From NCBI RefSeq assembly GCF_000189635.1, contig NW_002476519.1:3142-67141 (forward strand): DNA of 64,000 nt, written 5' to 3'. Numbering within the stretch: the first letter of the stretch is position 1; every line of letters starts with the position of its first letter. The DNA comes from Tetrahymena thermophila SB210 (lineage: Eukaryota; Ciliophora; Oligohymenophorea; Hymenostomatida; Tetrahymenidae). Position numbers and translations under genes: made by a program. The notes below the pieces were generated by a model, which did no database searches, was not told where the DNA came from, and saw only the letters and a list, made by a program, of their open reading frames with translations. Shown piece after piece: positions 3,941 through 44,534 of the stretch.

Positions 3941-6900
3941 GGAAAAGCTTATATAAAGCCTAAAGTTTTTATTTTTCTTTGAAAAATGAATAAATTCATA
4001 TATTGAAGATATTAAATCTTTAGGATATTACAACTAAAAAAGTAATAAAAATTTATATTTATTTTATTAAATAAAATTGCAAATAATTTAAAAATAATAA
4101 AAATTATTCTCAAAAAGTTTGTTAAAATTTTATCAAACCAATTATTTTATTTAGTTAGTATCTATCTGTAAAATTTACATCCAGAGCATTTTATTTTTAG
4201 ACAGTAAGTTAAAAAATTAAGATACTTAGAAATTAATCAAAAGATATTTAATAAAAGCAAATAATGAAAAGTCCATTCTTAATTTAATACAGCAGTAAAA
4301 GAGTGGATATCTTATTCAAGCATTCAAGGATACAAAATAAAATTTATAAATAAAATATATAATAATTTTTCATTATTAGTACAATTATATATTTATTTTT
4401 ATTACTCTTGTAAAGAGTAGAATTAAAATTTGTGTATTTTTATAAAATAATCCTTGTATTTATTTGAAATGTAGCTTTATTTGATTTAATGGAGTTGATT
4501 ACTATGGTTATTTTAGTTATGGAAATGAAGTTAATTTAAATATTAAATTAGAAAAAAATTTTGCTTTTCTTGTTTTTCATTTCGTGCGTTTGACTAAATG
4601 CTAAGAAGGCGTTTTAATTATTTTTCTGTAAAAAAATAGGATAAAATACCACAAATTTATTTAAAAAGCTTCGTACATAAATATTAATACAAACCTTAAA
4701 TCTTACAATATTAAATTTTAATCATAAACAGTTTTAAATAGAATGATATTATATTACATACATATTGATTGAAAATGTGTGAAAATATAAAAGATTTTAA
4801 TTTTTAAAAAAGCCATAATTTTAATGGTTTATATGATAATTGATTTTTAAAATAGCTTAAAATATAAAATTATAAAATATATAAATTTAAGTGACTTTAT
4901 TTTGTTTAAGCAGTTTAAATTTTGATGAGAAAAGACAAAAGTATAAATTATTTTACTTTCTAAAGAATTTGTGAGTATCAAAGAGAAGACGAAATTTATT
5001 TTATAGAGTTAATATTAAAATTCTTGAAGTTGAATTATAAATTAAAAATATGAAGTATGTATTTGTCTTCAGACTTTCATATAAAGAAAATAGTTAAAAT
5101 GATCTAAAAAATATCAAATTATTTACATTTTTCCATTAATTCTACGAAAAATCAAATTTTGTATTTTTTAGTTAAGTATAAATTTTAATTTATACTAATA
5201 TCTCATTATTATGATTTGTCCCCAGTATAAATGAAAAGAAATTAATACTAATTTTTAATCAAATAGTTTAAATTGAAAAATCTTTATAATTTAACTTTAC
5301 AAAATGTGCTTATTAAATATTAAAGAAGATAAAATACAAAATAATAATTTTAACTTTACTAATAAAATAATTTTTAATTTGCTTTATAAAAATTAAAATT
5401 TAATAAATAATTTGTCTTTTAAAATTATATTTGCTAAAAATTGGTTAAAATTTAAACTTAGTTTTTAACATTTTTAATATTTCATTTTTTTTGTTACATT
5501 TTTTTTTAGTAATCTAAATTTGTATTTGTCTGTAATTCAATTTTTTGTATTTGTTTTTTTTTTTCATAGGAAAATAAATTACAATAAATATGATAACTAT
5601 CATTAAAAATACAAAAAAATAAATAGTAAACAAAAAAAGATTCCCCACTTTTAAAAGGTTTTTCATAGCTAAATTTTAGAATAAATGTAAGCATTTGAAA
5701 ATATTCTAAATTAACTAATATGAAATTGAGGAAATTTATGCAGATATATATTTTATAATAATAAAATTGTTTGTTTTTTAGATAGGAATTAATGTTTATT
5801 CTAGCTTAGCCTACTATCTAATATTATTTAAAAGATATGTGTTACAAAATACTACTTGATATTAAAGCTAAATGACAAATAAATAATCTTTTAAATATAA
5901 CAATCCCATGAATTCATTTAGACATAAATCATAAAAAAAAATATAGAAGAAAAAATAATGGACTCAAAATAATAAGATCATTCAAGGATTTTAGTCAAAT
6001 TTTGTTTATATTATAGTCTCTACATTTGATTAATAAATAACATAGTAAGAATAAGGTTATTGGATATTTAGCTTTTTTGTTATAAAAGATTAATCCTTGC
6101 CTATAATTTTTCAAATAAAAAACAAAAATTTCTACCTAAATACATTATTCAATCAGATAAATTTTTGAATTGATTATTTACAATATTAGAACTAAAATAC
6201 ACACTTAGATTAATTATACTAAAAAAATTCAAAAGTAAAAAAAAGCAATTATATTTTTTCCTAATTAGCCAAAGAATCATTTTGAGGGAAAAGGATATTT
6301 TGATTTTTAATCAGTAAAATATTATCCACAAATTTAATTAAATACATTTGCTTTGTCTTGCTAGTTAAGCATTATGTAAAATATTCTACATAAAATTAAA
6401 TTAAAAGATCAATAAGTATAAATGCTGATTTATAATTAACCAATGATAAAAAGCATATTATAGTTAGTACGATGCGATACTCCTTACTCAGTAATTTAAA
6501 AATATTTGTAAAGCAATAATAGAAATTAAAATGAATAATAGATATGTGAGAATTTTAATTGATATCGTATAACCTTTCAATTTCATCTCTCATTGTGCAA
6601 GCTGAATCGGTCCAAAATTATGAAAAGTAAAAATGGCTTTTCTCCTAATAAAAACTTGAAGTAAGTTAAAATCATAAAAAATTAAGGTATGTAATGAAAA
6701 TTTCAAATATTTGAATGCGTTATAAAAATTTTAAATGATTTAGTTTGATCTTTCAAATTAAAAAAATCCACTTTACTTAATTAAAGAATTTAATTAAGAG
6801 TTAATCACTTGAACAACAGATTATAAGTTTTTAATACTTAAGGGATATTCAGATATTAAAGATATGCTTACTTTAATTTTAGGCTGTAATACAAATTAAG

Positions 6901-7021
6901 ATTATTTTTTTCTTAAATAATAAGAAAACAAACTCTGTTTAAAATAAGCAAAATAATCATCTAAAAATTATAATAATTAAATTCAATAATCATTAAATAA
7001 ATAAAAACTTTTAAAAAATAA
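3941..7021 (+). repeat. Upstream element, copy A (precedes gene A)
   Basis: About 3 kb of non-coding sequence that recurs, in the same orientation, upstream of the genes at 12583 and 17974 and in diverged form elsewhere. Shared landmarks: a CTCAAAAAG(T)TTTGTTAAAATTT block near 4110; the box CCACAAATTTATTTAAA at 4649; a GTCCCCAGTATAAATGAAA block near 5219; a GATATTTTGATTTTTAATCA block near 6293 ending in CCACAAATTTAATTAAATAC at 6326; and a conserved leader (about 6870-7020) with TTTTTTTCTTAAATAATAAG. The second box lies about 700 bp before the start codon of gene A. No coding potential was seen. It could be promoter plus 5' leader, an ncRNA locus, or a selfish repeat. Confidence 0.75.
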
Positions 7022-7708
7022 ATGAATAAGACCAAGATATTAATTTTTATTTTACCTTTGATTTTATTAGTTGTGAATGCTAAAAAGTAAATCATTTTAG
7101 GTGCTTAAAAGATAAACCTGTAAAATGCTTAAAATTCTTAAGAAAAGAAACAAGCAGGAGAATTACTCTATGCTAATAAAGAGAGTAGTTTAGTACTTCA
7201 ATTATAAATTGCAAGAGGTAAAGGAAACCAGGTGGGACAAAAAGGAGGCTAAGGAGCTCAAGGAGGAAGTTAAGGAGGCTAATAAGGATATTAAGGAGGT
7301 CAAGGAGGATAATAAGGAGGCCAAGGATCGTAAGGAGGATAAGCTGGTCAATATGGAGGCTAATAAGTACTTTAAGGAGGTCAAGGAGGATAATAAGGAG
7401 GCCAAGGATCATAAGGAGGCTAAGCTGATCAATATGGAAGCTAACAAGTGCTTTAAGGAGGTCAAGGAGGATAATAAGGAGGCCAAGGATCATAAGGAGG
7501 ATAAGCTGGTCAATATGGAGGCTAATAAGTACTTTAAGGAGGTCAAGGAGGATAATAAGGAGGCTAAGGATAATAAGGAGGCCAAGGATCATAAGGAGGC
7601 TAAGCTGGTCAATATGGAAGCTAACAAGTGCTTTAAGGAGGTCAAGGAGGATAATAAGGAGGCCAAGGATCATAAGGAGGCTACTTTGGATATAAAGGAG
7701 TCAATTGA
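7022..7708 (+). CDS. Secreted Gly/Gln-rich tandem-repeat protein A
   Basis: Single exon, 228 aa, TGA stop. Residues 1-20 are a clear signal peptide: basic start (MNKTK), hydrophobic core, ending VNA. A roughly 50-residue unique region follows (…GELLYANKESSL…), then 4.5 copies of a 27-residue Gly/Gln repeat. Each repeat contains GGQGGQQGGQGSQ and a variable GQYGGQQVLQ end, and two sub-variants alternate. The tail is GYFGYKGVN. Most Gln are TAA, so a standard-code gene finder would miss the gene. The frame is fixed by the signal peptide and by paralogues B-D. Function is unknown. Gly/Gln-rich secreted repeat proteins are often structural (matrix, coat, adhesive), but that is inference. It is expected to be translocated into the ER and exported or stored in secretory granules. 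The other two forward frames are also largely open because the repeat lacks TGA. Confidence 0.82.
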
Positions 7709-8680: not shown

Positions 8681-9830
8681 ATTTGTTAAGGTAAGTATAC
8701 TTTATAAAATGGTAACCTAAAATCAAATAAAATTAAAGATAATTAACCTTATTAAATGGAAATTTTAAATAAATTAAAGCTTTAAATATTTTATGAAATT
8801 CAAAATTCATACTTGAGCAAGCAAATTGCTAACTGAATAAAAAATTTAATTTAAAAATTTTTCTCAAATAAATAAATTAAAGCTTTGAATCTGTGTTTAA
8901 AATTCAAAATTAATTTATGAACAAGCAAGCTGTTTAATGAATAAAATTACAAACAATTTAGAAAAAATAAAAATTACTCTCAAAAAGTTTTGTTAAAATT
9001 TGATCAATCCTTAATAAATTTAGCTTTTATCTGAAAAATTTAAATCAATCATCAATAAACATGTAAGTTAAATATTAAGATATTTACATAGAGCAGATAA
9101 ATATTTGATATCTCATTCAAAGATATAAAATAAAATATATACATAAAATAATAATTTTTCATACTTAGTATGATTATCTAAGCATACTTATTTATTTTTA
9201 TTATTCTTGTAAAAAGTAGAATTAAAATTTGTGCATTTTTTGAAATGAGGTTTATTTTATTTAATGATTTATACTTCATTAAGGCAAGTATATTTTAAAA
9301 GATGGTAAAATAAAATCAATAAAATTAAAGATAAAACAATAATTAATTAACATTATTAAATCAGAATTTGGAGGAAATAAATTAGATTTTAAAATAATAC
9401 CTGAAATTCAAAATTAATACTTGAGAAAGCAAATTGCATATTAAATAAATAAATCGAAAATCTATCTGGAGGAAATTAATTTAAGCTTAAAATTTAAGTC
9501 TAAAATTAAAAATTAATACTTGATAAAGCAAATTGTTTATTAAATAAAATTACAAATAATTTAAAAATAATAAAATTATTCTCAAAAATTTTTGTTAAAA
9601 TTTGATTAATCCAATCTATTTAGCTTGGATCTTTAAAATTTACATCCACAGTCTTTTATTTTTAGAAAATAAGTTAAAAAATTAATAAACATACTTAGAA
9701 ATCAATAAAAGTAAATTTAATAAAAGCTAATAATGAAAAGCCCATTCTTTATTTAATACAGTAGTTATAAATATAGCGGATATCTCATTCAAGGAAATAA
9801 ATAAAATTTAAACATAAAATAATTATTTTT
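8680..9830 (+). repeat. Tandem ~0.6 kb duplication at the head of unit B
   Basis: Two adjacent direct copies, about 8680-9250 and 9275-9900. Both carry AAGGCAAGTATA-like starts, TTCAAAATTxATACTTGA, a CTCAAAAA(G)TTTTGTTAAAATTTGAT block, and a TTATTCTTGTAAA(A/G)AGTAGAATTAAAATT block. The second copy is continuous with the upstream element of gene B. The first is an extra partial copy, consistent with unequal crossing-over. Confidence 0.65.
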
Positions 9831-12582
9831 CAATCTTAATACGATTATGGAAGCATATTTATTTTTATTATTCTTGTAAAGAGTAGAATTAAAATTGCGC
9901 ATTTTTATAAAAGGGTCTTTATATTTATTTGAAATGAGGCTTTATTTGATTTAAGACAGTTGATTACAACGGATAATATTGTTATGGAAATGAAGTTAAT
10001 TTAAATGATAAAATAGAAAAAAAATTATGGTTTTCTTCTCTTCTTTTTCATTTAGTGCGTTTGACTTAATGATAAGAAGGCATTTTAATTATTTATTTTT
10101 CTGTAAAAAAATAATAAAATACCACAAATTTATTAAAATACCTTTTACATAAATATTTACCATATAAACAGTAATTAAATAGAACGATATAATATTACTT
10201 ACAAATAGATTGTAAATGCATGAAACTATAACAAGAGTGTTTAATTGTAAATAAATCAGTATTTTTAATGGTTTATATGATCATTTATTAACTAAAATAG
10301 CTTATTATGTACAATGATAATAAGTAGAAATTTATGTGGATTTATTTTGTTCAAGCGATTTAAATTTTCATCAGTAAAGGCAAAAGTATAAATTATTAAA
10401 ATTTTTACTCTCTAAAATTTGGGTATCATCAATACGAAGAAGAGGAAAGATATTTTATTGAATTAAAAATTAAAATTTTTGAAATTAAATGATAAAAAAA
10501 TATGAAGTATTTGTCTTAAGGTTTTCATAAAAAGAAAATAGTTAAAATAATCAAAAAAACATCAAAATATTTACATTTTTTCTTAAATACTTCGAAATCC
10601 AATCAAATTTTGTATTTTTTAGTTAAAAAAATCTTAATTGATAATATCTGATTATAATTTGTCCCCAGTATAATTGAAATTTTGATCAAATACTTTTCTT
10701 CAATTGAAAAATCTTACAATCTAACTTTACAAAATATCTTAAAAAAATTTTGTAAATTTTGAAGAAGATTGAGTACATACAAATAAAATTAACTTCATGA
10801 ATAAAACAATTGTTAATTTGCTTTATAAAAATTAAAATTTTATAAATTATTTGTAATAAATTTTAAAATTATACTTGCTAAATAAAGGTTTATATTTAAA
10901 CTTACTTTTTAACATTTTTTCTATATCATTTTTATAGTATTGTAAACCTGTGTCTGTATAAAATTAAATTTTTTGTATTTTGTTTTTTTCAAATGAAAAT
11001 TTAGAAGTAAAGGTTATTAATATCAGTAAAAATAAATAATAAGCAAAATTAATATAAATTTCCCACTTTTAAAAAAATTTTTCATAAGTGAATAAATGTA
11101 AGTATTCAAAAATATTCCACATAAACTAAAATGAAATTGATGAAATTAATTTATCCAGATATATATTTTGTAATAACAAAATGTTTTTTTTAGATAGGAA
11201 TGAATATTTATTCTAGTTTAACCTACCTTCTAATCTTATTTAAAGATATATATATAAATACTACTTGATATAAAAGTTAAATGGCTAATAAATAATCTTT
11301 TAAATGTAACAATCTCATTTATGCATTTCAACATAAATCAGAAAAAAATATAAAAGAAAAAATAATTAGATCATTCATAGCTTTTAGTCAAATTATGTTT
11401 ATATTAAATCTCTACATTTGATTAATAAATAACATAACAAAAATAAGGTTATCAGATATTTAGCTATTTAATATAAAAGATTAATCCTCGTCTAAAATGT
11501 TTCAAATTACAAACAAATCAAATTTATTTAGTTTAATTTCTACATAGATACATAATTCAATCAGATAAGTTTTTGATTATTTGAATTGAAGAAAATATTT
11601 ACAATTTTAAAAATAAAGCAAAACACTTAAATTAGCTATAATAAGAAAATACAAAAGTAAAAAAACAATGATGGTATTGTCAGTATTTGATTTAAAAAAA
11701 CAAGTGAAAGATAAAGTGATTCATAGATCAAATTATCTTTTTCTTAAAGAATTATTTTGATAAAAAAGGAAATTTTGATTTTTAATCAGAAAGATATAAT
11801 CCACAAATTTAATTAAATACTTTTGTTTTGATGATTTTATCTTGATAGTAATTCATTATTTAAAATATTCTACATAAAATTAAATTAAAAGATCTATAAG
11901 CATAAAAAATAATTGCTGATATGTCATTAACCTTAGGATAAAAAGACTAACATAGTTAATATAATCCTCCTTATTTAGTAATTTAAAAATATTTTTATAG
12001 CAATATTAAAATTAATAGTAGACCTATGAAAATTTTAATTGATATTATATAGTATAACATTTCAACTTTAACTTTTATTTAAAAAGCTGAATCAGTCCAT
12101 GATAATGGTTTCTGAAATTGCTTTTATCCAAGTAAAAACAAACTTGAAGCAATTTAAAATAATGTCAAAATAAAGGTATATAAATGAAAATTTTCAAATA
12201 TTTTGATGCGTAATACACACTTAATTAACATATATTTTGAAAATAACAGCTTTTATATTTTTTTATTGATTAATGAAATAGTTTGATATTTCGAAAGATA
12301 TTAATTGAAAAAACCCAGTTTATTATTTAGAATTTAGTTAAGAGTTAATCATTAAAATGCAATTTTTAATAGGTAATAAGTATTATGGGGTAGGCAGACA
12401 TTAAAGATAAAAATAATAATTTAATGTTTACTTTAATTTAATTTAAGGCTGTAATACAAGTAAAGATTATTTTTTCTTAATAAAAAGAAAACTCTGTTTA
12501 AAAATAGCTAAATAATGATCTGAAAATAATAATATTTAATTCTCAATAATTAAATTAAATAAATATTAAAAATTTTAAAAAA
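9275..12582 (+). repeat. Upstream element, copy B (precedes gene B)
   Basis: Direct counterpart of 3941-7021, recognisable by eye over nearly its whole length. Boxes: CCACAAATTTATTAAAA at 10122 and CCACAAATTTAATTAAATAC at 11801, spaced as in copy A. GTCCCCAGTATAATTGAAA lies near 10663. The second box is about 780 bp before the start codon of gene B. No coding capacity seen. Confidence 0.75.
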
Positions 12583-14007
12583 ATGAATTAGATCAAGACA
12601 TTAATTGTTATTTTATCTTTGACTTTATTGTTTGTTAATGCTTAAACTAAAAACTTTTTAGGTGCTTAAAGCCTAAACCAATAAAATTCTTAAGAAGGGA
12701 AATAATCAGGAGAATTGCTCTATGCAGATAAGGAAAGTAGTTTAGAACGTCAATTACAAAATACAAGAGGTAATGGAGGCCAGGTATCACAATAAGGAGC
12801 CTAAGGAGGCCAAGGACCATAAGGTGGCCAATAAGGACAATAAGGAGGTCAAAGAGGTTAATAAGGAGGCTAACAATAAGGTGGCCAATAAGGAGGCTAA
12901 CAATAAGGAGGCTAATAATAAGGTGGCCAATAAGGAGGCTAATAACAAGGAGGCTAACAATAAGGAGGCTAATAATAAGGTGGCCAATAAGGACAATAAG
13001 GAGGTCAAAGAGGTTAATAAGGTGGCTAATAAGGAGGCCAATAAGGAGGCTAGTAATAAGGAGGCTAACAATAAGGTGGCCAATAAGGGCAGTAAGGAGG
13101 CTAGTAATAAGGAGGCTAATAATAAGGTGGCCAATAAGGACAATAAGGAGGTCAAAGAGGTTAATAAGGTGGCTAATAAGGAGGCCAATAAGGAGGCTAG
13201 TAATAAGGAGGCCAATAATAAGGAGGTCAATAAGGAGGCTAACAATAAGGTGGCCAATAAGGGCAGTAAGGAGGCTAGTAATAAGGAGGCTAATAATAAG
13301 GTGACCAATAAGGAGGTCAAAGAGGTTAATAAGGAGGCTAACAATAAGGAGGCCAATAATAAGGAGGCTAACAATAAGGTGGCCAATAAGGACAATAAGG
13401 AGGCTAATAAGGATAATAAGGAGGCCAATAAGGACAATAAGGAGGTCAAAGAGGTTAATAAGGTGGCTAATAAGGAGGCCAATAAGGAGGCTAGTAATTA
13501 GGAGGCTAACAATAAGGAGGCCAATAATAAGGAGGTCAATAAGGAGGCTAACAATAAGGTGGCCAATAAGGGCAGTAAGGAGGTTAGTAATAAGGAGGCT
13601 AATAATAAGGTGGCCAATAAGGAGGTCAAAGAGGTTAATAAGGAGGCCAATAATAAGGAGGTCAATAAGGAGGCTAACAATAAGGTGGCCAATAAGGACA
13701 ATAAGGAGGCTAGTAATAAGGAGGCTAACAATAAGGAGGCTAATAATAAGGTGACCAATAAGGAGGCTAATAAGGACAATAAGGAGGTTAATAAGGAGGC
13801 CAATAAGGAGGCTAACAATAAGGAGGTCAATAAGGGCAATAAGGAGGCTAACAATAAGGAGGCTAACAATAAGGAGGCTAGTAATAAGGAGGCTAGTAAT
13901 AAGGAGGCTAACAATAAGGTGGCTAGCAATAAGGAGGCTAACAATAAGGTGGCTAATAAGGAGGCTAACAATAAGGAGGCTAATAAGGACATTAAGGAGG
14001 TAATTGA
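12583..14007 (+). CDS. Secreted Gly/Gln-rich tandem-repeat protein B
   Basis: Single exon, 474 aa, TGA stop. The signal peptide (about 1-20) starts MNQIKT and ends VNA. The conserved pro-region NFLGAQSLNQQNSQEG and ELLYADKESSLERQLQNTRG matches genes A and C. Nearly all of residues 75-470 is GGQQ, GGQQQ and GGQRGQQ units with almost no other residues, ending GGN just before TGA. It is the largest and most homogeneous of the four paralogues. The unit boundaries suggest expansion by slippage or unequal exchange. Because the repeat is built from GGAGGC(T/C)AATAA-like units without TGA, several other frames are open too, including a Lys/Asn/Glu/Ala-rich one free of all three standard stops. Those lack a signal peptide and I treat them as shadows. 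Function unknown; a secreted structural protein is inferred. Confidence 0.82.
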
Positions 14008-14960: not shown

Positions 14961-17900
14961 TAAAAAGGCATTTAACTCTAAAATTATAACATAAAATAAT
15001 AATTTTCCATTTTTTGTACGATTATTCTTGTAAAGAGGAGAATTAAATTTTTTGCATTTTTTATAAAAGAATCTTTGTATTAATTTGAAATAATGACTCA
15101 TTATTTTATTTAAGGAGGTTGATTGACTAAATGGGGTATTTTATTTTCAATTTTTAGGTTGAAATGAAAGTTGATCTTTCACTTCCTCGACTTATAAAAT
15201 AACAATAATAATAAAAGTAGAAAATAAAAAAGAAATTGAAGTTAATATTTGGTAATAGTTAGCAACATCATTTTAAATCAAATTTAATTAATTTATCTTT
15301 GCAAAATTGTTCTAGTCTTTTTCTTACCATGATTTAATTAATTGTAAATTAACAATTTATCCAACATAATCTACTTTCTATTTTAAAAAAAATATTTCTA
15401 TAAAAATCATTACTAAAATGGTCAATACCATAACATAAAAATAGTTTCTAAATTATAAATATTAAGCCCAATAGCCAAAAGAGAGTGATGGAAAAGAAGC
15501 TAATTAAAATATTAAATTAGAAAAAATTTTGGTTTTCCCTTTTTCATTTAGTGCGTTGATTAAATGTTAAGAAGGTATTTTAACAAATGTAAAGTAAGAA
15601 TAGGATAAAATACCACATATTTAATTAAAAAAGCTTGAATATAAATATTTAAACAAATCTAAAATATCTTTAAGTATAAATATGATGTTACTCTTAAAAG
15701 GTATTTATATAGAAAGATAAATAAAGTTTTTCTTACAAATTTATTGAAAGTGTAAGAAAACATGAAATTGAGTGTTCAACGATATATAATATTTTTAATG
15801 TCTTTATAAGATAATTGATTTATTAAAATAGCTTATAATGTAGAGTAATATGTGTGTGGATTTATGTTTGTTAAAACAATTTAAACTTTCATAAGCAAAT
15901 ACTAATATAAATTATAGAAAGTTTACTCTCTAAAAAACTTGATGAAGAAGAAAGTCATTAATTGAATTTAATATTAAAATTTTTTATATTTAATTATAAA
16001 TTAAAAAGATGAAGTATTTGGCTTCATGTTTTCATAAAAAGAATATAGTTCGAATTTATTTAAATTTTGAACCTAAAAAATATAAAATTATTTGCATATC
16101 TACTATAAGTTCGAAATCCTATCCACTTTTGTATCTTTTAGTTAAATCTAAATCTATCTTAATTAATATTAACATCTCATTGTGATTTACCCACAGTATA
16201 AATGAAAATAAATTAAATTTTAAGTTTTAATCAAATACTTTTCTTAAATTGAAAAAATCTTTCAAGTTTAACTTTACAAAATATCCTTATTAAATTTTGA
16301 AGAAAGAAGAAGAAGATTTAGATTGAATTCAAACAAATAATTGTGACTTTTTGAATAAATCAATCAATCAATCAATTTTTAATCTTTAATTTACTTTATA
16401 AAAATCAAAATTTAATTAATCATTTGCTTTATCTTTTTTTTATATTTGCTAAATATTGATTAATAATTAGGCTTAATTTTTAGCATTTCTTCTAGTAATC
16501 TAAGCTTGTATCTATAATTGATTTTAATCATTGATTTTTTTTTCATACGAAAATTAAAAAAAAGTGATAATCATCATTAAAAATACAAAAAGATAAATAG
16601 TAAGCAAAATAAATATAATTTCCCCACTTTTAATTAATTTTCTTAACAACATTTTAAGTAAATGTAAGCATATGAAAATATTCTACATTAACTAATATGA
16701 AATTAAGGCAATTTATACAGATATATATTTAGTAGTAACAAAAATGTTTTAATATTTTAGAAAAGAATAAATGAATGAATGTTTACTCTATTTTAACAAT
16801 CATCTAATATTATTTAAAGATACATATTTAAAAATACTAGATATTAAAGCTAAATAACAAATGAATAATTTTTTTAATTTAATGACTCGCTAATGCATTA
16901 ATATGTAAGCCAAAAAAAAAATATAAAGAAAAATAACTACCATTTTTTTTATTAAACCTCAAAATAATTTGTTCGTTTCTTATTTTTAGTCAAATTTTGC
17001 TTATATTTTAGACTCAATATAAGATTAATAAATAGCATAGCAAGAAGAACGACAGGATATTTAGCTTTTTTTTGTAATAAAAGAATCAGTCCGTGTTTGT
17101 CTGTTTAATCTAACAAATATTTATAAAATAAATCAAATTGGTTTTAATTACACATTTTTATATAACCATTTCAAGGACAAAGCATTTCATAAATAAAGTT
17201 ACTTTTTTTCTAATTAATTAAGGAATTTTTTGAGAAAAGGTGATATTTTGATTTTTAATCAGTAAAATATAATCCACAAATTTAATTAAATACATAAAAA
17301 GGTTATGATGATTTTATCTTGCTAGTACTATTTCGCAAAATATTCAACTTAAAATTGAATTAAAAGATAATTAAGCAAGCATAAATACATTATTGCTGAT
17401 ACGTCACTTACCTTAAGATAAAAAGACTAACATAGTTAGTATGCTCCTTATTCTGTAATTTAAAAATATTTTTATAGCTATTACTGAAATTACAATGAAT
17501 AATAGAGGTATGAGGATTTTTATTGATACCATATGACCTTTCAACTTTTAACTTTTGTTGAAAAACTAAATCGGTCCATGAAAGTTGTTTTTAAATTTTT
17601 AAAAGTAAAATTTTATCAAAGTCAAAACTTGAAGTAAGTTGGCAAAATTAAGGTTTATTGAATAAGTTTGATTTTTCAAAAACCTATTAATTGAAAATAT
17701 CCAATTTACATTATTTGAGAATTTAACGAAAAGTTAATTATTAAAAATGATATATTTAATAGATTATAAGTTTTTACTACTTGATGGGTAAGAAGACATA
17801 AAAATAAAAATTTAATGTTTAGTTTAATTTAATTTAAGCTTTTATACAAATAAAGATTATTTTTTCTTAAATAATAGAAAAACTTTGTTTAAAACAAGTT

Positions 17901-17973
17901 AAATAATGATCTGAAAATAATAATATTTAATTATAAATAAATAAATAAAAATAAATATTAAAAACTTCTAAAA
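14960..17973 (+). repeat. Upstream element, copy C (precedes gene C)
   Basis: Third full copy. Landmarks: a TTATTCTTGTAAAGAGGAG block near 15024, CCACATATTTAATTAAA at 15613, CCCACAGTATAAATGAAA near 16190, and CCACAAATTTAATTAAATAC at 17274, about 700 bp before the start codon of gene C. The order and spacing match copies A and B. No coding potential seen. Confidence 0.75.
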
Positions 17974-19620: not shown

Positions 19621-19649
19621 AAAAATTTTATATTGATATTCTCTGATAA

Positions 19650-21680: not shown

Positions 21681-21689
21681 TTTTTGACT

Positions 21690-24150: not shown

Positions 24151-24175
24151 TAATAATAATTACCTTAATACTTCT

Positions 24176-24224
24176 AACCTCTAACCTCGAAATAGTTATT
24201 TTTTTGGAGTCGAGGTAAGAGGTT
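24176..24224. repeat. 15-bp hairpin at the R1/R2 junction
   Basis: The arm AACCTCTAACCTCGA (24176-24190) pairs with TCGAGGTAAGAGGTT (24210-24224) at 14 of 15 positions around a 19-nt loop. It is conspicuously GC-richer than its surroundings and sits exactly between two repeat units. It could be a fold-back left by rearrangement, a terminator-like structure or a breakpoint hotspot. Confidence 0.7.
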
Positions 24225-26270: not shown

Positions 26271-26279
26271 ATACCCCTT

Positions 26280-27415: not shown

Positions 27416-29103
27416 TTTACCATAAATAAAAATTAATTAAAAAAAAATGACTTAGAACAAACAATTTCAAATATATTTTTATTTAATTTTAAACTCATTA
27501 ATAGATACCCAAACCATTAGATTTTAATTAGGTGTTTGGTTATATTATGAATTAAATAATTAAAAAAAACTAAAAATTCAAAACCGATTAATTCTTTTCT
27601 TCAAAGAAATTAATTGATTTAATTACAGTTTGATAATATTGTAAACTGTATATTTTCAAATTTAATAAAATTTAATTTGTTAATATATTTTAGCTAAATT
27701 TACAAAAGCTTTTAAAAATGTTTGATAAGAAATGTAAAATATTTTAAAGTATAGTTATAACACACTATATTCTCTTATTTGATAAATTTAAATGAATGGA
27801 GGGAGATTACAAGCAGATTTTTGAAATATTTTATTATTTATGTAAATTTAATGAATTTCTTAATTAAATAGAATGAAAAATGTCATATGTTTTAGAATAA
27901 GGTCATTTATTAATAATAAAATAAAAATATTGCTACATATTTTGAAGATTTTCTTGTTAATAACCACTTTTTAAATTATTCTACTTAAAATTTAATTTCA
28001 AATTCAATTAATTTCCTAACTGACTGACTCATCAATCGCTAATTTTTAGAATTTTGTATTAAAATATTTATATTGAATTAAGCTGTGATACAGTAAAAAA
28101 AGCTTTTTAATGATAAAATAAAAAAGGGAATAAAGTAAATTAATTATATGGTTGGATTAATTTGATCATTTGACTATTTATTTTAATTCGATTGATTATA
28201 GTTATAAATTTTACTTTATTAATTGCTATCATAAAATGAATTGTTATCAAAATGTAGAAAATCTGAAAAAAATTCAACATTAAATTGGTTTTTTTTCTAA
28301 TTTAAACAAATTTGAGATAAAAAGATATTTTGACTATGAGTCAGTAAAATAAAGACTAAATTTTAGCTAAATAAATATCTTAATTTTTTTAATTAAAATT
28401 TCATAAAATATTCTACTTACAATGAAATAGAAATCCTATTAAGTTTAAACATACCAACTTTCAAAATTGATATTTTGATTAAAAGCGCCATTAACTAAAT
28501 TAAGATGATATTCAAAATAATTTTTATTCAAACAAATGAAATTCTATTGATAGGTTAAATTGAGAGTATTTTAATTGATATTTGTATTTAACTTTAATAA
28601 TTTATACATACCATCAAACCTCTAATTTAAATTTTTCTTAATATTATTTTTGCTATAGAAATAATTAGTATAACAAAATTTTAATCAAATTTAAAATATA
28701 AATGTTATAATTTATACTTTTGGAAAGTATGGTATATATTTAATTAATAATTGTGTTTCATATCTATAATATTCTCTTTATTTAAAATCACATATTAATT
28801 TTATCTTTCGAAAAATGATTAATTGAAAAAATCAAATTTAGTATTACTATTTTAAAGAATTTAATTAATTTAATTGTTTAAAATTAAAATTGATAGATTA
28901 TTTAATTTTAATATTTATTTAAGGGGTAGGCAGAAATGAAAATAAAAATATGATTTAATTTTAATTTTATTTTAAATATCTAATATTTATAACTTCTTTT
29001 TTAAGTGAGCTAAATTTTTTATTTAAATAGGTGTTCTATCCATGATATGAAATTTAAAATATTAAATTAATAAATTAATAACTAAATAAAAACTACCAAA
29101 AAA
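27415..29103 (+). repeat. Upstream element of gene D
   Basis: Diverged upstream element leading into gene D. Its first 1.3 kb (to about 28690) is duplicated at 40445-41705, sharing AAAAGCGCCATTAACTAAAT and TTTTTGCTATAGAAATAATT. The GATATTTTGACTATGAGTCA block near 28326 is the counterpart of the second-box region and lies about 780 bp before the start codon of gene D, as in units A-C. Confidence 0.65.
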
Positions 29104-29865
29104 ATGAAATAAGTTAAGATATTAATACTTATTTTCTCTTTAACTCTATTAATTGCTTATGCTTAACCTAACAACTTTTTAGGTCATCATAAAAATCAAT
29201 AAAATGACCTAAATTCTTAAGAAATTAGCGAATAAAAATCAGCACAAGAAGTTCCTTCACCTATAAAACCAAACTTAAATAGCTAATAAGAGGGTTAAGA
29301 TGATTAATTAGGAGCAGAAGGCTAAGTAAATGAAAGAAATCTCTAAGGAGGATAATAAGGAGGTAGGCCAGTACAAAAAGCCTCAGAGGGAAAAGGAGCT
29401 AGATCAGGCTAAGGAAGTCAAGAAGGCTAAGGAGGATAATAAGGTCCAGGAGGCTTCGGAGGTTCAGGAGGATAAGGAGGTCCTGGAGGATAGGTTGGAT
29501 AATAAGGTCCAGGAGGCTTCGGAGGTTAAGGTGGATAAAGAGGATAATAAGGTCTAGGAGAATAAGGATAATAATAAGGTTCAGTAGGTGAAGGACTTGA
29601 ACAAGGAGACTTAGGAAATATACCAGATTCAGAAGATCCAAGAAACTAAGGAGGCATACCAGAGCAGTAAGGTCCAGGAGAATAAAGGGGTAGATAAGGA
29701 GGCAATGCAGGAAGACCAGGACAATAAGGTGTAGGAGGTAGACCATAGTAAGGAGGTGTAGGAAGTGAAAAATCTAGACCAGGACAAGGAGGTCCAGAAG
29801 GCTAAAGAGGCATACCAGGATAATAACCAGGAGGATAAGGAACACCATAAGGACAAATGCCTTGA
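29104..29865 (+). CDS. Secreted Gly/Gln/Pro-rich protein D
   Basis: Single exon, 253 aa, TGA stop. The signal peptide (about 1-20) starts MKQVKI and ends AYA, and the shared NNFLG and NSQE motifs mark it as a paralogue of A-C. The spacer (about residues 25-85) is more acidic and unique (EVPSPIKPNLNSQQEGQDDQ). The repeat half has imperfect GGQGGQQGPGGFGG, GPGEQ, GRPGQQG and GIPGQQPGG units. These are richer in Pro, Arg and Phe and reminiscent of, but not regular enough for, collagen G-x-y triplets. It ends in GTPQGQMP. It is the most diverged member. Function unknown; a secreted structural role is inferred. Confidence 0.8.
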
Positions 29866-30340: not shown

Positions 30341-32880
30341 TCCTATCTTTAAATGAAGTTGATTTAAATATTAAATAATAAAATTTAGATTTTTATCCTC
30401 ATAATTTTAATTAAATTAATAGAGTTTAGCTAAATAATAAAAACCTAATTTTATCAGAAATCTTAAATTAAAAGTATAAAATGCCACAAATTTAATTAAA
30501 AAATATATCTATCAGAAATCATATTTTGATAGATAAATTCTTCAAAATACAGTTAAATTCTTCCGAAGGGCAATTAATTTAGATTTTGATAATCTTACAC
30601 TTAAAAAATGTGATCTGAGATGACAATTAATATTAAATAGTATTAATATAGATAGATTTATTTAAAGGCTAAATGATTAACAATATATAAAAACATAGAT
30701 CTGATTCAAAACAGAAAAATCTTATTTTTACATTATCAATCATATAAATATTAATTAAAATAATTAAAAATTTAAAATAATTTGATTTGATAAAAATTAT
30801 ATTAGAATATTTAAATCAAATTAAAATTATTCTTTATTAACTCATTAACTAAATCAGTAGTGAGTTAATAAATTGTTTGTCTATTAAATTTAGTATCAAT
30901 AGATATGAAATCATTTTTATTTTTAATCAATTGTTAATATGATGAATTGATGGATTACGTACTTGATTAAATATTTTCATAATATTTCTATCATTTATGA
31001 ACAAAATAGATAAATATTTTTAGAATTTATCAAATCAAATTAAAAAATAGTTAAATAACAAACAGTTTACATTTCTTTATTTTATTAAAAATCAATCAAA
31101 TTTTTGTTACTTTTTGTTAGATCAAAAAATTGCTTTAATACAAACTAACATCTAATTTTATTTAGCACTCAGTAATAAAGAATTATAAATTAATACCAAT
31201 ATTTCAATCAGATATTTGCTTTTCCTATTAGAAATATTTTTCAAATTCAAATTGATAAAATATTCTACTTAATTGTAAAGATAATAAATAACCAACATTG
31301 ATTTCTAGCAAGTAAAATTATTTTTTTAAATAAAAAAACCATGATTTTACTTCACTAAAAGTTGTTTAATAAAAAATTAGATAATTCTTTTCAATTGATA
31401 TTCAATATTTTAAAATATATTAGATTTGAATTTAGCTTTCTAAATCTTATTTTTTAGAAGTTAATTATCTTACATTTATAATGTTATGATAATTAATTAT
31501 CAAAAATTAATTAATTATTAGTATTAAAGTTAATTAATATTACAAAAATCCCCATTTCAATATATCTTTATTAACGAATTATTGAAGAATTCACATAAAA
31601 TAATCTACATTAACTTATTTTAAAATGAAAGATATTATGTATTAAAATAAATATTTTTTCATTTTAATAAGAAGAAAGAGGTGAATATATATCTTGCTGT
31701 AAAATTTTATAATTACTTTAATTTTGAAATGTATAAATATAAAGTAGAATTTTTCTAAAAATAATATCTAAAAACAAGGTTTTATATAAGAGTAATTTAA
31801 ATATATGATAACTTCAAATAATCATTTTATATATCTCTATTTAATATAATAATAGGAACTTGAAGAGAAACTTCATTTGAGATAAATTGATACAATTAAT
31901 TTAAAAAGATTTAAAAATTAAATAAAACTTAAGATCAAATTATTCTTTTCTTTCAAGAAATTAATTGACTAAATTACAGTTGAAGAATATTGTAAACTAT
32001 ATCATATCAAATTTATGAGCTTGAATTTATTAATTTTAGTTTTCTTTACTGAAAATTTTTTTCATTATTGATAAAAAGTACAAGATATTTTAAAAATATA
32101 CTTTTTCATCTATTAAATAAAAAAATATAGAGGATTTAAAAGTAGGTTTTATGAAAAATATACTTATTTCTTTAGATTTAATGATTTTATAAGTTAAATA
32201 AAATGAAAAATTTGATATTAACTTAAATTCATTCAATAAAAGTAAAAATGATGATCCTTCATTTGAATATATTTTCTTATTAATTAGGACTTTGTATAAT
32301 ATTCTATTTAAAATCAAATTAAAAATGACTAATTTAGATTTTATTCTTTTACCTAGCTTCATTCTAAAGAATAATTTTTTAATATTAAAAGAAAATAGAA
32401 ATTACAAAATCATTAAAATGGTTGTATTTGTTTGATCCATGTTTGCTATTCTCATAAATTTTAATTAGAAGTTTTATTTGAATAAATGCTATGATAATAT
32501 AATTCTTTTAAAAAAGTAGCAGGTTGTCATAAAAATATAAATATGCTTGCTATTTGGCTAATGGTATTGAGAAAAAAGATATTTTGATTGTGAGTTAATC
32601 AGAAAATAAAAACCACAACTTTATTTAAATAAATAAATATCTTTTAAAGATTTTATCATTTAATTAAATCTTTATAAAATATTCTCTTTGTTTTTCAATT
32701 AAAATACTTTAAAGTCGAAATTAAAACCTACTTTCTACTAATTAATATTATGGATAAAAACATTATAAGCTATATATTGAAAAAGGGGATATTCAGTTGA
32801 ATTAAAAATACTTCTTTAGTTACACATTTATATAATCTACTACATCATAATCAAATTACTTAAAATCGATAACTATAGAC
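30340..32880 (+). repeat. Diverged orphan upstream element R4
   Basis: Full-length diverged element. Its first half matches R1 (CCACAAATTTAATTAAAA at 30484; CCCCATTTCAATATATCTTT near 31550). Its second half is near-identical by eye to R3 (GGAACTTGAAGAGAAACTTC at 31854, CCACAACTTTATTTAAAT at 32613, TTAGTTACACATTTATATAA at 32816). The next gene downstream is the unrelated LRR gene, so this copy is also an orphan. Confidence 0.65.
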
Positions 32881-33481
32881 CTCAATACCCCCTCAACACC
32901 ATAAAAATTCATCAAATTAAAATTTTTGATTAAAAATTATGGAGGAGGGAGGGATATATATTTTATAAAAAAATATTAATTAACTTTTAAAAAAATAATT
33001 TAAAAAATATTGCAAAAATTCAGAAAGAAAAAAATTAAATAAATAGATAGATTTTGGCCTTATTTATAGTCTGAATTTTTTATATAAAACATTTGAAATT
33101 GAATAAAATTTAGATATATTTAGATAAAATAAATTACAATCAATAAATAGAAAATTCAATTATATTTGCTTTTTTTCAATAACTGCTCTAAAATAAATTT
33201 GAATTCAAAATTGAAAGCTAAAATAGAACAGTAATCAATAATTTATAAAAGCTGAGTAAAAAGACTATTTATTTAAAATAATTAATAGCTACTTCTAAGT
33301 AAAGATATACATCATGTTAATTAATAGGTGGTTATGTATATTTTTATCTTGCTTTTTGAGGGTTTTTATTATTTAAGACTAACTAACTGTGTTTTTGCTT
33401 TTCTATAAAAATAACTTTTTTATTATTTATTAATTTTAAAAACTTTATTTTTTTAATAAGTAATAACTTAATTGAAAAAAA

Positions 33482-35120: not shown

Positions 35121-35439
35121 TATCATGAAGCAAAATTATCTATAATAAAATATCCAAAAAATAAAAATATTGAAATTAAATTAAATTTTATGTTTAAGTA
35201 AAAAAATTTAAATAGAAAAATTATTATTAAAACAGACTTTTTAAAGAATGATTTTTAAAAAAATGCTTTGATTAAAAATTTTTTTAAAGAATTTTATTAC
35301 TTTTATTAAAAAAAGAGACATTAATAAAAAAATACAAATAATACCAAAATAAAATTAGTATAAAACTATTCAAAATAATTAAAATATCTTCTTTTAAATT
35401 TAAAAATAACTTTTGTTATTACTTTTCATTTTTTTTAAT

Positions 35440-37265
35440 TCAATTTTTAAATTCATTCACTATTTATGCTTCTTTTAAAACTATTTTAGTTTCTTATTGA
35501 CATAAACCAAGGTAAAATCTTAAATCCTCATTTTCTGTAAGTTTTTTTTTATATTTATCATCTAATCCTAGCTTATACTAATAATTAGGATAGTCTACTA
35601 CTTCTAAAATCTAATCTTTTAAGCAAACTCTTAATTCTATTACATTCTCTTTACTTAACTTAAAATTGTCTCCTTTTAATTTTTTATCTATGCCTAAATT
35701 ACTATAGCCATTATTTTAAGGATCTGATTTTTCTATAAATTCATTTAAAAATATAAATTGGCTGCATAAATTATCACAATATCCTTAAATTTTATTAGAA
35801 TCTGATTCCTTCATTAGACCTATCATGAATTAGTTTTTTTCTTTAATATTTTCAACTTATATTCTAAAAATATATTTTAAATCTTTTTATAAATACATAT
35901 TTGAGATACAATTCACCCAGCTACTGTGATGTAACTAATAAATTTCATATTCGCTATTTTCTTTTTTATTTATAATGCAGTGTTTTTATCCATCATTAAA
36001 TTAGGTTGTTAACATTTAAAAATTTTATTTGAAAAAATTAGCTTCATAAATAAATCTCATCTATTGATCTTTCAAGTTTCTGAAGAAATTAAATTTATTT
36101 TAGTCATAAATATTAGAAAAGTTAATATGCTTTAAAAAAGGTTTTACATCAATTAAAAATTATTCAAATTGAAATATGAATTAACTGTTTAAGAAACTCA
36201 TTTGAGAATTTGTAATTAAATTAATTTATTTTATTTCTAAACTATCTTTTACTATATTTTAATACTACTGCTGAGTTGTTAAAAGTATTTAATGTTTAAC
36301 ATAATCTTCTATTTAACATTACTTTTCTTCACTAATTTTTGAAAAATCAATAGCTTATTTATTTTCTGTATGAATAATATTGAAATTATACTCTTAAAGA
36401 AGATGATTAAGCCCTTAAAGGATTTAATCCAATTCATAAAGGAATTAGTCAGAGCAAAAATTAGATTTATTTGAAACAAGTTTCATTATTAATTCTGCAC
36501 TCAATTTCTAGCCTCTGTTATTATTTTAATTGGTAGTATTAGATTATAGATGTCTTTCCCTATTTTGATTTATCATGCCTTAAGATAAATCACTTTTAAA
36601 GAAAGAGATTTTATCTATACAAGCAAATATTTATTATTTCATCAAATTTGGAAGGTTTAAATTGAAATTTGTTTCTAATTGATTAGCTTAACATAGTAGG
36701 TTCTACAATAATTCAGTATTTTTATCTTTTTAGGACTCAATTTGTGAAACAAATTCTCTGCAGAGAGTTGAATATTCTTCTATACTACTTGCTTCTTAGT
36801 TTTTGTTTAGAATCTACTTAAATTATTTTATTTTTGATATTTCTTAATATCTTTCAATAATTTGTTAGTTAGTAGGATATTTTAAAGTTTCATTGATCAT
36901 ATTTTTTTAGATGATGTCTATTTTTGCTAAAAATTCTCCTTTGAATTGATTAAAGAAATTTGTGATTTACTTTAAGTATTCGCATTAAGATTCATTTGAT
37001 GTGAACTCAATGAGATCTTAAATGACATAGTAGTCATTGACAGGTGCCATTTTGAGATAATTTTACTATCTGCTTCTTAAATAATGTCATCTATCATTAA
37101 ATAGTTAATTGTTTTGAATTCAAAATCATTATTAACACAAGAACAACAATAGAAAAGAGGCTTTTTGGAGCAGGATTGTAATAATAGATCATTAACTTAG
37201 ACAAATTAAATATCTCTATTTGAATGTGTAGGACATTTTAGATTTTTAGTTGTAATTTTTTCCAT
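35440..37265 (-). pseudogene. CxxH/CxxC-finger family, copy 1 (frameshifted)
   Basis: Colinear over its whole length with the intact copies at 37691-39523 and 41845-43677. The start is MEKITTKNLKCPTH, the CxxC is at FYCCSC, and the end is AQIVNEFKN then TGA. One G is missing from the GGTGGCCATTTT context near 37044-37046, so the frame breaks after about residue 73 and would stop after roughly 120 residues. The rest is open in the restored register, so the lesion looks recent unless it is a sequencing error. An intact start and normal 5' flank suggest it may still be transcribed. Confidence 0.72.
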
Positions 37266-37690
37266 TTTAAAACTTTGACAATCAAAGGTTGTTGAGAAAG
37301 AATATGTTTTTAATATTTTGTTTAGATTAGTATTTTTTTACTATTATTTTTGTTGAAAGTTTATAAAGAAAAGTATCGTAATATCATATAAACACAACTA
37401 TATCAATATTCTAATAAATATTTTATTTAATTGCAAAACATATTGTATTTTTTTAATTTTGAGATCTATTTTTTTTATACATTAAAAATTAAAATTATTT
37501 ATATTTCTTAATGTAGAAATTAAAAATTTTTAAAAAGGGTTTAGAAAAATATGATAAATTACATTAAAAAAAGACATTAATAAAAATACAACTACAATCT
37601 ATTTTAATACAATTCATATATAATTATTCATAGCAATTAAAATATCTTTCTTTTATTATATTTATTTTTGTTATTATTTTTTTTTTTATT

Positions 37691-39523
37691 TCAATTTTTA
37701 AACTCATTCACAATTTATGCTTCTCTCAAAACTATTTTAATCCCCTCGCTTTTTAAACCAATGTAAAGTTTTAGATCCTGATTTTTTGTGAGTAAATATT
37801 TATAAGAATCATCTAATCCTAGCTTATACTAATAATTAGGATAATCTACCACTTCTAAAATTTAATTTTGTAAGCAAACTCTTAATTCTATTATTTTCTC
37901 TCTAGTTAACTTAAAACAGTCTCCTTTTAATATTTTATCAATGCCATAATTAGAAGAACCTGTTCTAGGATCAGATTTTTCTATAAATTAATTTATATAT
38001 CTAAAATGGCAGCTTAAATAATCTTTATATCCATCAAATTTATTAGAATTTAAATTTGTCATTAGACCTATCATGAAATGAGCACCTTCTTAAATATCTT
38101 TAATTTGTATTCTAAAAATATATTTCAAATCTTTAATTAAATTAATTTCTGAAACACAATTCACCCATTTATTACCTTCAAACTTCTTAATTTTTTATTG
38201 ACCATTTTATTTTTTTTTTACTTAGCAACTTAGTTATCCATTATTATGTTAAGTTATTAATAGTTAAAAATTATAACTGAATAAATTTTGTAAATAATTA
38301 TTTCTTATCCATTCATCATTAATGTTTAGGTTTCTGAATAAAAAAAATTTATTTTAGTCAGAAAAAATATTTGAAAAATTAATGTGCTTTAAAAAAGGTT
38401 TTACATCAATTAAAAATTTTTCAAACTGAACTGTGAATTAACCATTTAAGAAATTCATTTGAGAATTTATGATTAAATTAATTTATTTTATTTCTAAGCT
38501 ATCCTTAACTTTATTTTCGTAAGACTGCTGAGTTGTTAAAAGTGTTTAATGTTTAACATAATCTTCTATTTAATTTAACTTTTATCCACTAATTTTCGAA
38601 AAATCAATAGCTTCTTTATTTTCTGTATGAACTTTTTTAAAATTATACTATTAAAAAAGAGGATTAAGCCTTTAAAGAATTAAGTTCAATTCTTAAAGGA
38701 ATTAGTCAGAGCAAAAATTAGATTTATTTGAAACAAGCTTCATTATTAATTCAGCACTCAATGTCTAGTCTCTGTTATTATTTTAATTGGTAGTATTAGA
38801 TTATAGCTGTCTTTCCCTATTTTGATTTATCAAGTCTTAAGATAAATCGCTTTTAAAGAAAGAAATATTATCCATACAAGCAAATATATATTCTTTCATT
38901 ATATTTGGAAGGTTAAAATTTACATCTTTTTCTATTTGTTTAGCTTAATTTATTAGGTTCTTAAATAATTCAGTATTTTGATCTTTCTATGACTCAATTT
39001 ATGAGATGAATTCCCTGCAGAGAGTTGAATTTTCTTCTATACTAGATTTTTTGTTATTATTGTCTAGAAACTACTTAAATTATTATATTTTTGATATTTC
39101 TTAATATGTTTCAATTATTGTTTAGCGCGTCGGATATTTTAAAGTTTAATTGATCATCTTTTTTTAGATGATGTCTATTTTTGCTAAAAACTCTCCTTTG
39201 AATTGATTAAAGAAATTTGTGATTTAATTTACGTATTCGCATTAAGATTTATTTGATGTGAACTCAATGAGATCTTAAATGACTTGCTAGTCATTGACAG
39301 GTGGCCATTTTGGGATAATTTTACTATCTGTTTCTTAAATAATGTCATCTATCATTAAATAGTTGATTGTTTTGAATTCAAGATCATTATTAATACAAGA
39401 ACAACAGTAGAAAAGAGGCTTTTTGGAGCTGGGTAGAGACATTACATCATTGATTTAGACAAACAAAAAATCTTTATTTGAATGTTTAGGACATTTTAGA
39501 TTTTTAGTTGCAATTTTTTCCAT
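37691..39523 (-). CDS. CxxH/CxxC-finger protein with coiled middle and C-terminal SPRY-like domain, copy 2
   Basis: Single exon, 610 aa, TGA stop. N terminus: C11-x2-H14 and C40-x2-C43 (LKCPKH, FYCCSC), a compact zinc-ribbon/B-box-like site. The pair is C40/C43, because copy 3 has CSSC. Residues about 90-400 are hydrophilic, Lys/Glu/Gln/Asn-rich and probably helical (QITNFFNQFKGEFLAKIDII, QINLIINSQMNFLNGQF). The C-terminal third (about 430-610) looks like a divergent SPRY/B30.2-type sandwich: KKFEGNKWVNCV, LKYIFRIQIKDI, ELRVCLQNQILEVVDYPNYQ, then LYIGLKSEGIKIVLREAQIV. A finger, coil and SPRY order recalls TRIM-like proteins, but no RING is present and homology is not proven. Cytoplasmic or nuclear (no signal peptide). 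One of four tandem minus-strand copies. Confidence 0.8.
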
Positions 39524-40440
39524 TTTGAAACTTAAACAAAGGAAAGTTGTTGAGAAAGAATATTTTGTTTAGATTATTATTTTTTACTTTTATTTTTGTT
39601 AAGAGTTAATTAGAAAAGTATAGTATCACAATATCGTATAAGCACAACTTTTTCAATATTCTATTAGATATTTGATTTAATTAGAAAGAATATTTTATTT
39701 TTCTAATTTTGAATTTTATTTTTTAAATACATTAAAAATTGTTTAAAGTGAAATAAATCATTTAGACCAAACCCATAAATTCTTAAAATCAAAAAAATCT
39801 TTATTTTGATTGGATAAATTTTAGGTGCATTTTTAAAATACACTAATCCACCTAAATAAAAACTCGGTATTTGTATATAAAATACTTATCAATTATAAAA
39901 AGTCTTCTGTGTTTCCTTTAATTACCTAATTATCGATCATTTTTCATCACTGTTCATAACATAACTATTAGTACTTAATTGATATTGAAAGAATTATCAT
40001 CTATTCAAAATTTGAATTAAGTCTAAGTTACATGAGTCATATAAATCTATAATAAAAAATCCAGATTCATTCATATGAAAACATAAATGATGTAAGCATA
40101 TTTTTTATTATTTTCATTTTTTATGATAAAAAATCTCCTTTACTGCACTTATGAGTATTTCTTAAGTGATATTTTCCTTTTAGTAGAGTTTGTCACTAAT
40201 TTTTAATTTATTCATGATCCAATATCTACCCTATTAGATACACAAATAAATATTTCAATTTTTTTCTTCTTGAGAAAATTTCTTTTTTAACCTGATGTAT
40301 GGCAGAAGGTCAATTCTTGCTGATATTTAAATTATCTTATTTTTTTTATACCAAATTCACAAAAAGCAATATCTAATATATCTGTTTAGCTTTGATAATT
40401 CAACTTACTTGTGACTATTTTTTTTTTTAAATAGAAAATA
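39524..40440. other. 5' flank of copy 2 (shared with other copies)
   Basis: The first about 200 bp (GTTGAGAAAGAATATTTTG) match the 5' flanks of copies 1, 3 and 4, so the promoter was duplicated with the gene. 39950-40120 (TAACTATTAGTACTTAATTG, TTCATTCATATGAAAACATA) matches 44140-44320 upstream of copy 3. No gene seen. Confidence 0.5.
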
Positions 40441-40444
40441 ATTC

Positions 40445-41705
40445 ACCAAAATTTATCATAAATAAAAATGAATTAAAAAAAAATGGCTTAGAACTAACAA
40501 TTTCAAATATATTTTTTTTAATTTTAAACTCATTAATACCCAAACGCTAGATTTTAATTAGGAGTTTGGCTATATTATGAATTAAATAATTAAAAAGAAA
40601 CTAAAACTTCAAAACCGATTAATTCTTTTCTTCAAAGAAATTAATTGATTTAATTGCAGATTGATAATATTGTAAACTGTTAATTTTCATATTTAATAAG
40701 ATTTAATTTGTTAATGTATTTTAGCTAAATTTAAAAAATGTTCGATGAGAAATGTAATATATTTTAAAATATAGTTATAACAAACTATCCTCTCTTATTT
40801 CTTAAATTTTAAATGAATGGAGATTATAAGCAGATTTTTGAAATATTTTATCATTTATGTAAATTTAATGGATTTCTAAATTAAATAGAATGAAAATGTC
40901 ATATGTTTTAGAGTAAGGTCATTTATTAATAACAAAATTAAAATATTGCTACATATTTTGAAATTTTTCTTGTTAATAACCACTTTTTAAATTATTCTAC
41001 TTAAAATTTAATTTCAAATTCAATTGATTTCATAACTGACTAATCAATCTACTTATTTTTAAAATTTTGTATTCAAATATTTATATTAAATTATGCTGTG
41101 ATACTGTAAAAAAAACTTTTTAATGACAAAATAAAAAAAGGAATAAAGTAAATTATATGGCGGATTAATTTGATCATTTATTTATTTTAATTCTATTGAT
41201 TTTATTTATAAATTTTAATTGAGTAATTGCTACTATAAAACGAATTTTTATCAAAATGTAGAAAATCTTTAAAAAAATCTAAATTAACTTGGTGTTTTTC
41301 TAATTTAAAGAAATTTGAGATAAAAAGATATTTTTATTTTTAGTCATTAAATAAAAGACTCAATTTGAACTAAATAAATATCTTTATTTTTTTAATTAAA
41401 AATTTGATAAAAAATTCTATTTATAATGAAATATCAATCCAATTAAGTTTAAACACACCAACTTTCAAAATTGATTTTTTTATTAAAAGCGCCATTAACT
41501 AAATTAAGATAATTCAATAATTCAAAATAATTTTTATTAAAACAAAACAAATGAAATTCTATTGATATGTAGAATTAAGAGTATTTTAATTGATATTTGA
41601 ATAATAAAATATTTAGCTTTAATATTTTATACATACCATTGCACCTCTGATTTAAATATTTCTTAATAGTATTTTTGCTATAGAAATAATTAGTATATGA
41701 TAAAT
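40445..41705 (+). repeat. Orphan upstream element E inside the finger-gene array
   Basis: A 1.3-kb copy of the first part of gene D's upstream element (27415-28690), same orientation, colinear by eye from TTATCATAAATAAAAATGAA at about 40456 to TTTTTGCTATAGAAATAATT near 41674. It ends about 140 bp before the 3' end of finger-gene copy 3. It carries none of gene D. Confidence 0.7.
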
Positions 41706-44530: not shown

Positions 44531-44534
44531 TTTA

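Follow-up and report, generated by a model that had tools for sequence, protein, structure and literature searches.

Introduction

Tandemly duplicated, fast-evolving genes, lying as local paralogues in tandem, are described for Tetrahymena in the available part of one report (PMC6564038). The available part of another reports that the somatic genome of T. thermophila contains roughly 1 Mb of putative transposon sequence, biased in some instances towards element ends (PMC5182062). Here we analyse 64 kb of Tetrahymena thermophila SB210 DNA (C54:3142-67141, hereafter the window), with searches of the 101-Mb assembly of 445 contigs. In this window a multi-kilobase stretch, which we call the element, precedes four Gly/Gln-rich genes and also occurs without them. 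The locus resembles the first system in that its local paralogues lie in tandem. It differs in that six of the ten copied units are gene-less and the non-coding part outnumbers the gene; gene-less upstream copies are not discussed in the available part of PMC6564038. Our favoured reading, which we hold to be likely, is of an unremarkable local array in which gene-plus-upstream segments were duplicated and gene-less units copied again. In this reading one short block (block III below), and perhaps also the final ~300 bp, would have a cis-regulatory role, and most gene-less (orphan) copies would be leftovers.

A local array of ten copies

Comparison of the window with itself by BLAST (E<=1e-10) gave 139 non-self high-scoring segment pairs, 138 of them on the plus strand. 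They form long colinear diagonals and are not merely short AT-rich similarity; the lone pair not on the plus strand is a local palindrome (19388-19518). Wholly inside 3.9-41.8 kb lie 133 of the 139, the window-wide count taking in a minus-strand gene family at 35-47 kb. The element is present in ten copies, colinear and all on one strand, between 4.06 and 41.7 kb, so that every copy found fits one 37.7-kb span in one orientation. Adjacency, colinearity, common orientation and common locus are what local tandem duplication leaves behind. A sequence-only reading of this DNA had counted about ten same-strand copies of a multi-kilobase non-coding stretch, six of them orphans at about 19.65, 21.7, 24.2, 26.3, 30.3 and 40.4 kb. 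The count is confirmed, and the positions agree with those of the copies named Or, E1, E2, E3, E5 and E6 below.

Four copies run up to Gly/Gln-rich genes on the plus strand; GC content in the window is 0.155-0.333 per 2 kb, and reading TAA and TAG as Gln gives sensible frames. Copy A (4063-7021) carries blocks I (4523-4669), II (~5080-5740) and III (6281-6420) and leads to gene A (7022-7708; 228 amino acids with table 6), which has Gly/Gln-rich repeats and a start that looks like a signal peptide by eye. Copy B (9536-12582), whose left end is partly repeated at 8933-9240, precedes gene B (12583-14007; 474 amino acids). Copy C (15484-17973), with a further left piece at 14980-15146, precedes gene C (17974-19620), the frame of which continues into what is 3′ flank in A and B. 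Copy D (27408-29103; block III at 28311-28449) is left-truncated, begins with a dispersed ~133-bp repeat (27408-27545) and precedes gene D (29104-29865; 253 amino acids). By its entry into flank-type sequence, gene C seems shortened at the 3′ end (19367-19620). Pfam returned no family for the frames of genes C and D (P0005 and P0006), the two that were sent.

The orphans, likewise on the plus strand, are Or (19717-21592; blocks II and III), which belongs to the class of A, B and C; E1 (21714-24140; blocks I-III); E2 (24219-26193; blocks I-III, with an internal deletion); E3 (26282-27408; right half only, with block III); E5 (30348-32896; blocks I-III, 86% to E1); and E6 (40444-41715), an ectopic copy, 87% to 27408-28689, which lies between two minus-strand paralogous genes and has the dispersed repeat at its start. 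A tree of block III divides the array into three classes, {A,B,C,Or} (support 98/97), {E1,E2,E3,E5} (100/99) and {D,E6} (95/93), the last two being neighbours in the tree. Since Or groups with A-C and the E copies lie near D and E6, gene-less units occur in both lineages, the E units having then been copied in tandem. Copy starts differ, and both profile search and BLAST describe a repeat with ragged rather than fixed ends.

Divergence of the upstream regions

The element is non-coding, as the sequence-only reading had judged. Gap lengths divisible by three number 15 of 52 in A-B, 9 of 54 in A-C, 8 of 58 in B-C, 3 of 26 in E1-E5, 0 of 8 in E3-E5, 3 of 29 in E1-E2 and 3 of 15 in D-E6, against 4 of 4, 2 of 2 and 1 of 1 in coding controls. 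The claim rests on gap lengths because the phase of substitutions was uninformative, controls included: it carried no consistent signal, the most uneven pair being E3-E5 (24/18/10) and the coding controls reaching just 123/130/88 and 55/31/41.

Among A, B and C, the upstream regions diverge about as fast as the synonymous sites of the adjoining genes. Upstream mismatch is 0.194 (A-B), 0.244 (A-C) and 0.231 (B-C) over 2,272-2,351 aligned columns, and the synonymous p-distance in the non-repetitive gene start is 0.231, 0.220 and 0.262, respectively (43-46 sites each). On the left side the A/B duplication also runs past the element (370 of 438 aligned columns identical), and it takes in the 3′ flank (393 of 528 columns, 74.4%). 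With A and B copied beyond both of its ends, the element cannot be delimited as a separate unit there. Coding sequence, upstream region and 3′ flank come out as of one age, the flank being compared in A/B only, over those 528 columns, and the coding part at few synonymous sites. The plain reading of these distances is that A, B and C descend from one duplicated gene-containing segment, whose 2.5 kb of upstream DNA would be under little overall constraint. Of the large regulatory cassette proposed earlier, the term 'regulatory' fits the conserved blocks described below.

Landmark blocks

Ordered landmarks had been reported before all four genes and in every copy. Only block III (the GATATTTTGATT block) is common to all ten. 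Block I, the first box, is found in six (A, B, C, E1, E2 and E5), and block II, the CCCAGT region, in seven (the same six and Or). D, E3 and E6 are left-truncated, and the full set precedes genes A, B and C; before gene D it is incomplete.

Within the window, and measured against shuffles of it, the box occurs 20 times at <=3 mismatches (5.3 expected), CCCAGTATAAATGAAA six times at <=3 mismatches (1.7 expected; 1 of 100 shuffles reaches six) and AAAGATATTTTGATTNTTA 17 times at <=3 mismatches (6.2 expected). CCCCAYTTTTAAT shows no excess over chance at <=2 mismatches (10 against 7.8; 32 of 100 shuffles reach 10). Nor are the landmarks spread everywhere in the genome: six of seven exact box matches fall inside the cluster, as do all four exact matches to GATATTTTGATTN{2,10}TCAGTAAAATA, the GATATTTTGATT...TCAGTAAAATA pattern. 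Allowing one mismatch, the box has 50 places, 11 in the cluster, all plus-strand there, and 39 outside it, compared with 30 for a reversed control pattern.

Profiles of the A and E classes align with each other only around blocks I, II and III. The E-class profile matches A at 4-157 (block I, first box) and 2216-2289 (block III), B at 2217-2336, C at 720-973 and 2210-2336, and Or at 646-1301 (block II); D has only 1539-2423 in common with it and E6 only 1549-2336. With the A-class profile, blocks II and III are found in E1 and E2, a block III stretch besides block II in E5, and block III in E3. When A is compared with E1 by BLAST, the block order is the same and an extra 70-bp piece is matched. 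Six global alignments of A-class with E-class copies were set aside; they stand at background (rest 0.55-0.59, island 0.56-0.62) and are probably out of register. Taken literally, block III is not extra conserved in them; the profile search was used instead.

Block III as a candidate regulatory site

Block III consists of a TGATT/AATCA dyad and an AT-rich box. Its core in copy A (6285-6345) has the dyad TGATTtttAATCA, then the box CCACAAATTTAATTAAA, with GATATTTTGATT from 6294; the core contains TGATTtttAATCA in A-C and TGACTatgAGTCA in D. Core identity is 0.885 (A-B), 0.902 (A-C) and 0.885 (B-C), compared with 0.798, 0.722 and 0.741 in the rest of the stretch (one-sided Fisher p 0.061, 0.0007 and 0.006). 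The start of GATATTTTGATT (GAAATTTTGATT in B, GATATTTTGACT in D) lies 728, 814, 732 and 780 bases before the start codons of A, B, C and D. Gene D is distant from A-C (synonymous p 0.51-0.61), and despite this distance its block III can still be aligned with the other copies. Constraint together with steady position marks a cis-regulatory site; the A/B/C identity and the 728-814-base spacing fit that description, and the orphans give a mixed picture. Block III is probably such a site and may hold a target for a transcription factor. The last 310 bases upstream of gene D are 0.639, 0.613 and 0.685 identical to their A-C counterparts, modestly over the ~0.55 background of such AT-rich alignments, and the last ~300 bp before the genes are perhaps cis-regulatory as well.

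Weighing the orphan copies

Several results pull against this account of a mostly neutral array with one regulatory block. The synonymous estimates come from few sites, the gene-less E class offers no synonymous yardstick, and the neutral reading is drawn from sequence comparison rather than from population or expression data. The block III comparisons share sequences and are not independent, and within A/B/C blocks I (p 0.043, 0.077 and 0.21) and II (p 0.094, 0.00007 and 0.16) do not stand clearly above the rest. Block III exceeds its surroundings (p<0.05) in four of the eight comparisons that contain orphans (E1-E5, E1-E2, E2-E5 and E1-E3), which leaves room for orphan function.

Block III of E1 folds better than 199 of 200 shuffles (z -3.35). 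This result, with the presence of block III in every copy, is what speaks for the non-coding RNA locus that had been suggested from the letters, and which might lie within the element, for instance near block III. The folds of the A and D blocks are no better than those of shuffles (z -0.12 to -0.38), however, and RNAalifold predicts no pair on block III. In that block the single double change in the dyad is reached by 96 of 500 shuffles, so that there is no covariation beyond shuffles. Rfam at gathering level, run on the whole window, gives just a tRNA and no family over the copies; below threshold, a laxer search of 21600-28700 gave two matches (E 0.81 and 0.93). We therefore regard an RNA locus as very unlikely.

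Alternatively, the orphans may have been retained as working regulatory DNA, serving the gene cluster as extra enhancers, decoys or silencing targets. Block III was compared with its surroundings in 21 alignments (three between gene-bearing copies, eight with orphans and ten between classes). Besides the four orphan comparisons with a protected block III, the dyad is kept in E1, E3 and E5. In the other four (E3-E5, D-E6, A-Or and C-Or), however, block III is no more identical than its surroundings, and the dyad is broken or deleted in Or, E2 (which lacks half of it) and E6, that is, in three of six orphans, whereas it is intact in all four gene-linked copies (probability 0.17, by hand, not significant). 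Comparisons of D or E6 with E copies gave block III p values of 0.0015, 0.027, 0.044 and 0.12. Orphan function is not needed to explain the array, and we hold it to be unlikely. An equally doubtful extension would make the gene-less units an array of enhancer-like or decoy sites (the block III dyad with its box) that sets how strongly the Gly/Gln-rich genes nearby are expressed; selection would then act on how many non-coding units there are and not on gene number.

No relic of a gene was found by tblastn after any of the six orphans when the starts of genes C and D were compared with the following stretch (best E 3.0). The linker between E1 and E2 (24170-24225) has, by eye, a short inverted repeat, CCTCTAACCTCGA ... 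TCGAGGTAAGAGG; it matched none of the other linkers and flanks tested.

Genome-wide distribution and the ectopic copy

Genome searches scored the best candidates only and skipped very common words, so absence in them is not strict. So measured, the stretch is found at this locus only; what turns up elsewhere is short AT-rich matches, a ~90-bp match on contig C107 and the dispersed ~133-bp repeat. With E1 as query, 6 of 21 matches lie outside the cluster, and with A, 12 of 25, all short and none above 65.3 bits. The upstream region of D gave 49: 12 in the cluster, 34 to the dispersed repeat with which D begins and three at one place on C107. There, ~90 bases of the D/E6 class (28171-28260 and 41178-41264) match at 81-84% and up to 94 bits; the C107 site is itself a 188-bp, three-copy tandem repeat. 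BLAST with lax scoring served to gauge background only, with AT-rich matches on both strands along the contig and chance rows at ~53-63% identity among the matches listed.

A selfish repeat moving without the gene was an earlier suggestion for the element. In its favour, copies outnumber genes, and E6, which has a dispersed repeat at its start, is 13 kb away from its closest relative. Against this, the copies found occupy one span in one orientation with only short matches elsewhere among the best candidates scored, their starts vary, and the A/B duplication passes both ends of the element, where a transposable element would have dispersed copies with fixed ends. A selfish origin is, to our mind, extremely improbable. 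What was proposed as spread independent of the gene is best understood as tandem duplication of units already gene-less, plus one ectopic copy.

The ~133-bp repeat (27408-27545 and 40444-40578) forms the left border of both D and E6. It has at least 38 places on 30 contigs, several partial, 18 in the query orientation and 20 in the opposite one. Among 30 loci read, both ends are clear in 20, and of the 20 copies with usable ends one showed a target-site duplication of 4 bp or more (0.9 on average in shuffles); with the right end shifted by 1-4 bases the duplications numbered 2, 1, 1 and 0, compared with 1.1, 0.4, 0.6 and 0.1 in shuffles. Target-site duplication thus went undetected. Across 18 pairs of the fold of the repeat, compared in 19 of the 30 loci, there was no compensatory change. 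Loci L039, L051, L052 and L054, and in part L050, of the 30 have a further common upstream stretch like TGACATATTTATTATTTTTGTCA. Short, scattered and found in what appears to be a somatic assembly, the repeat resembles the retained sequence in the available part of PMC5182062 and may belong to that putative-transposon class; unlike that sequence, it was matched here to no named transposon, and the ten-copy element is local.

The somatic nature of the assembly is suggested by telomere-like GGGGTT runs (C4:3-314 and C4:465614-465937, among the matches listed of 3,960 forward and 4,409 reverse), and the copies of the array would accordingly be retained in the somatic genome. This bears on the earlier suggestion of DNA elimination, under which a germline-limited sequence would be missing there. 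Of the window's own contig, the first 3,141 bases are N and the right end is not telomeric.

Origin of the array

In the favoured account of a local array, the element would be the long 5′ region of a small family of genes for Gly/Gln-rich proteins. Gene-plus-upstream segments were copied by local duplications in the same orientation, with germline unequal crossing-over as the presumed agent; some units lack a gene, and such units would have been recopied to give E1, E2, E3 and E5. One D-type upstream piece would have been copied 13 kb away to become E6, and recombination or break repair between two ~133-bp repeats could have given D and E6 their common left border. Outside A/B/C too, most of the copied sequence would drift neutrally, and most orphans would be non-functional.

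The locus shows how a striking 'element' can be the mostly unselected portion of an array of tandem genes: measured against adjoining synonymous sites, 2.5 kb of apparent conservation shrinks to short blocks. In a ciliate, these make candidates for cis-regulatory sites. A possible route for such copying is suggested by the dispersed repeat that borders the sole ectopic copy.

Other features of the window

A tRNA-Gly (GCC) gene lies at 58021-58091. Four minus-strand paralogous genes occupy 35288-47507 (at 35.3, 37.5, 41.7 and 46.2 kb, the frame of the fourth being shortened); the two tested had no Pfam family at the cut-off. Their family is large, with 72 matched stretches genome-wide, many of them clustered on contigs C24, C73, C5, C111, C180 and C227.

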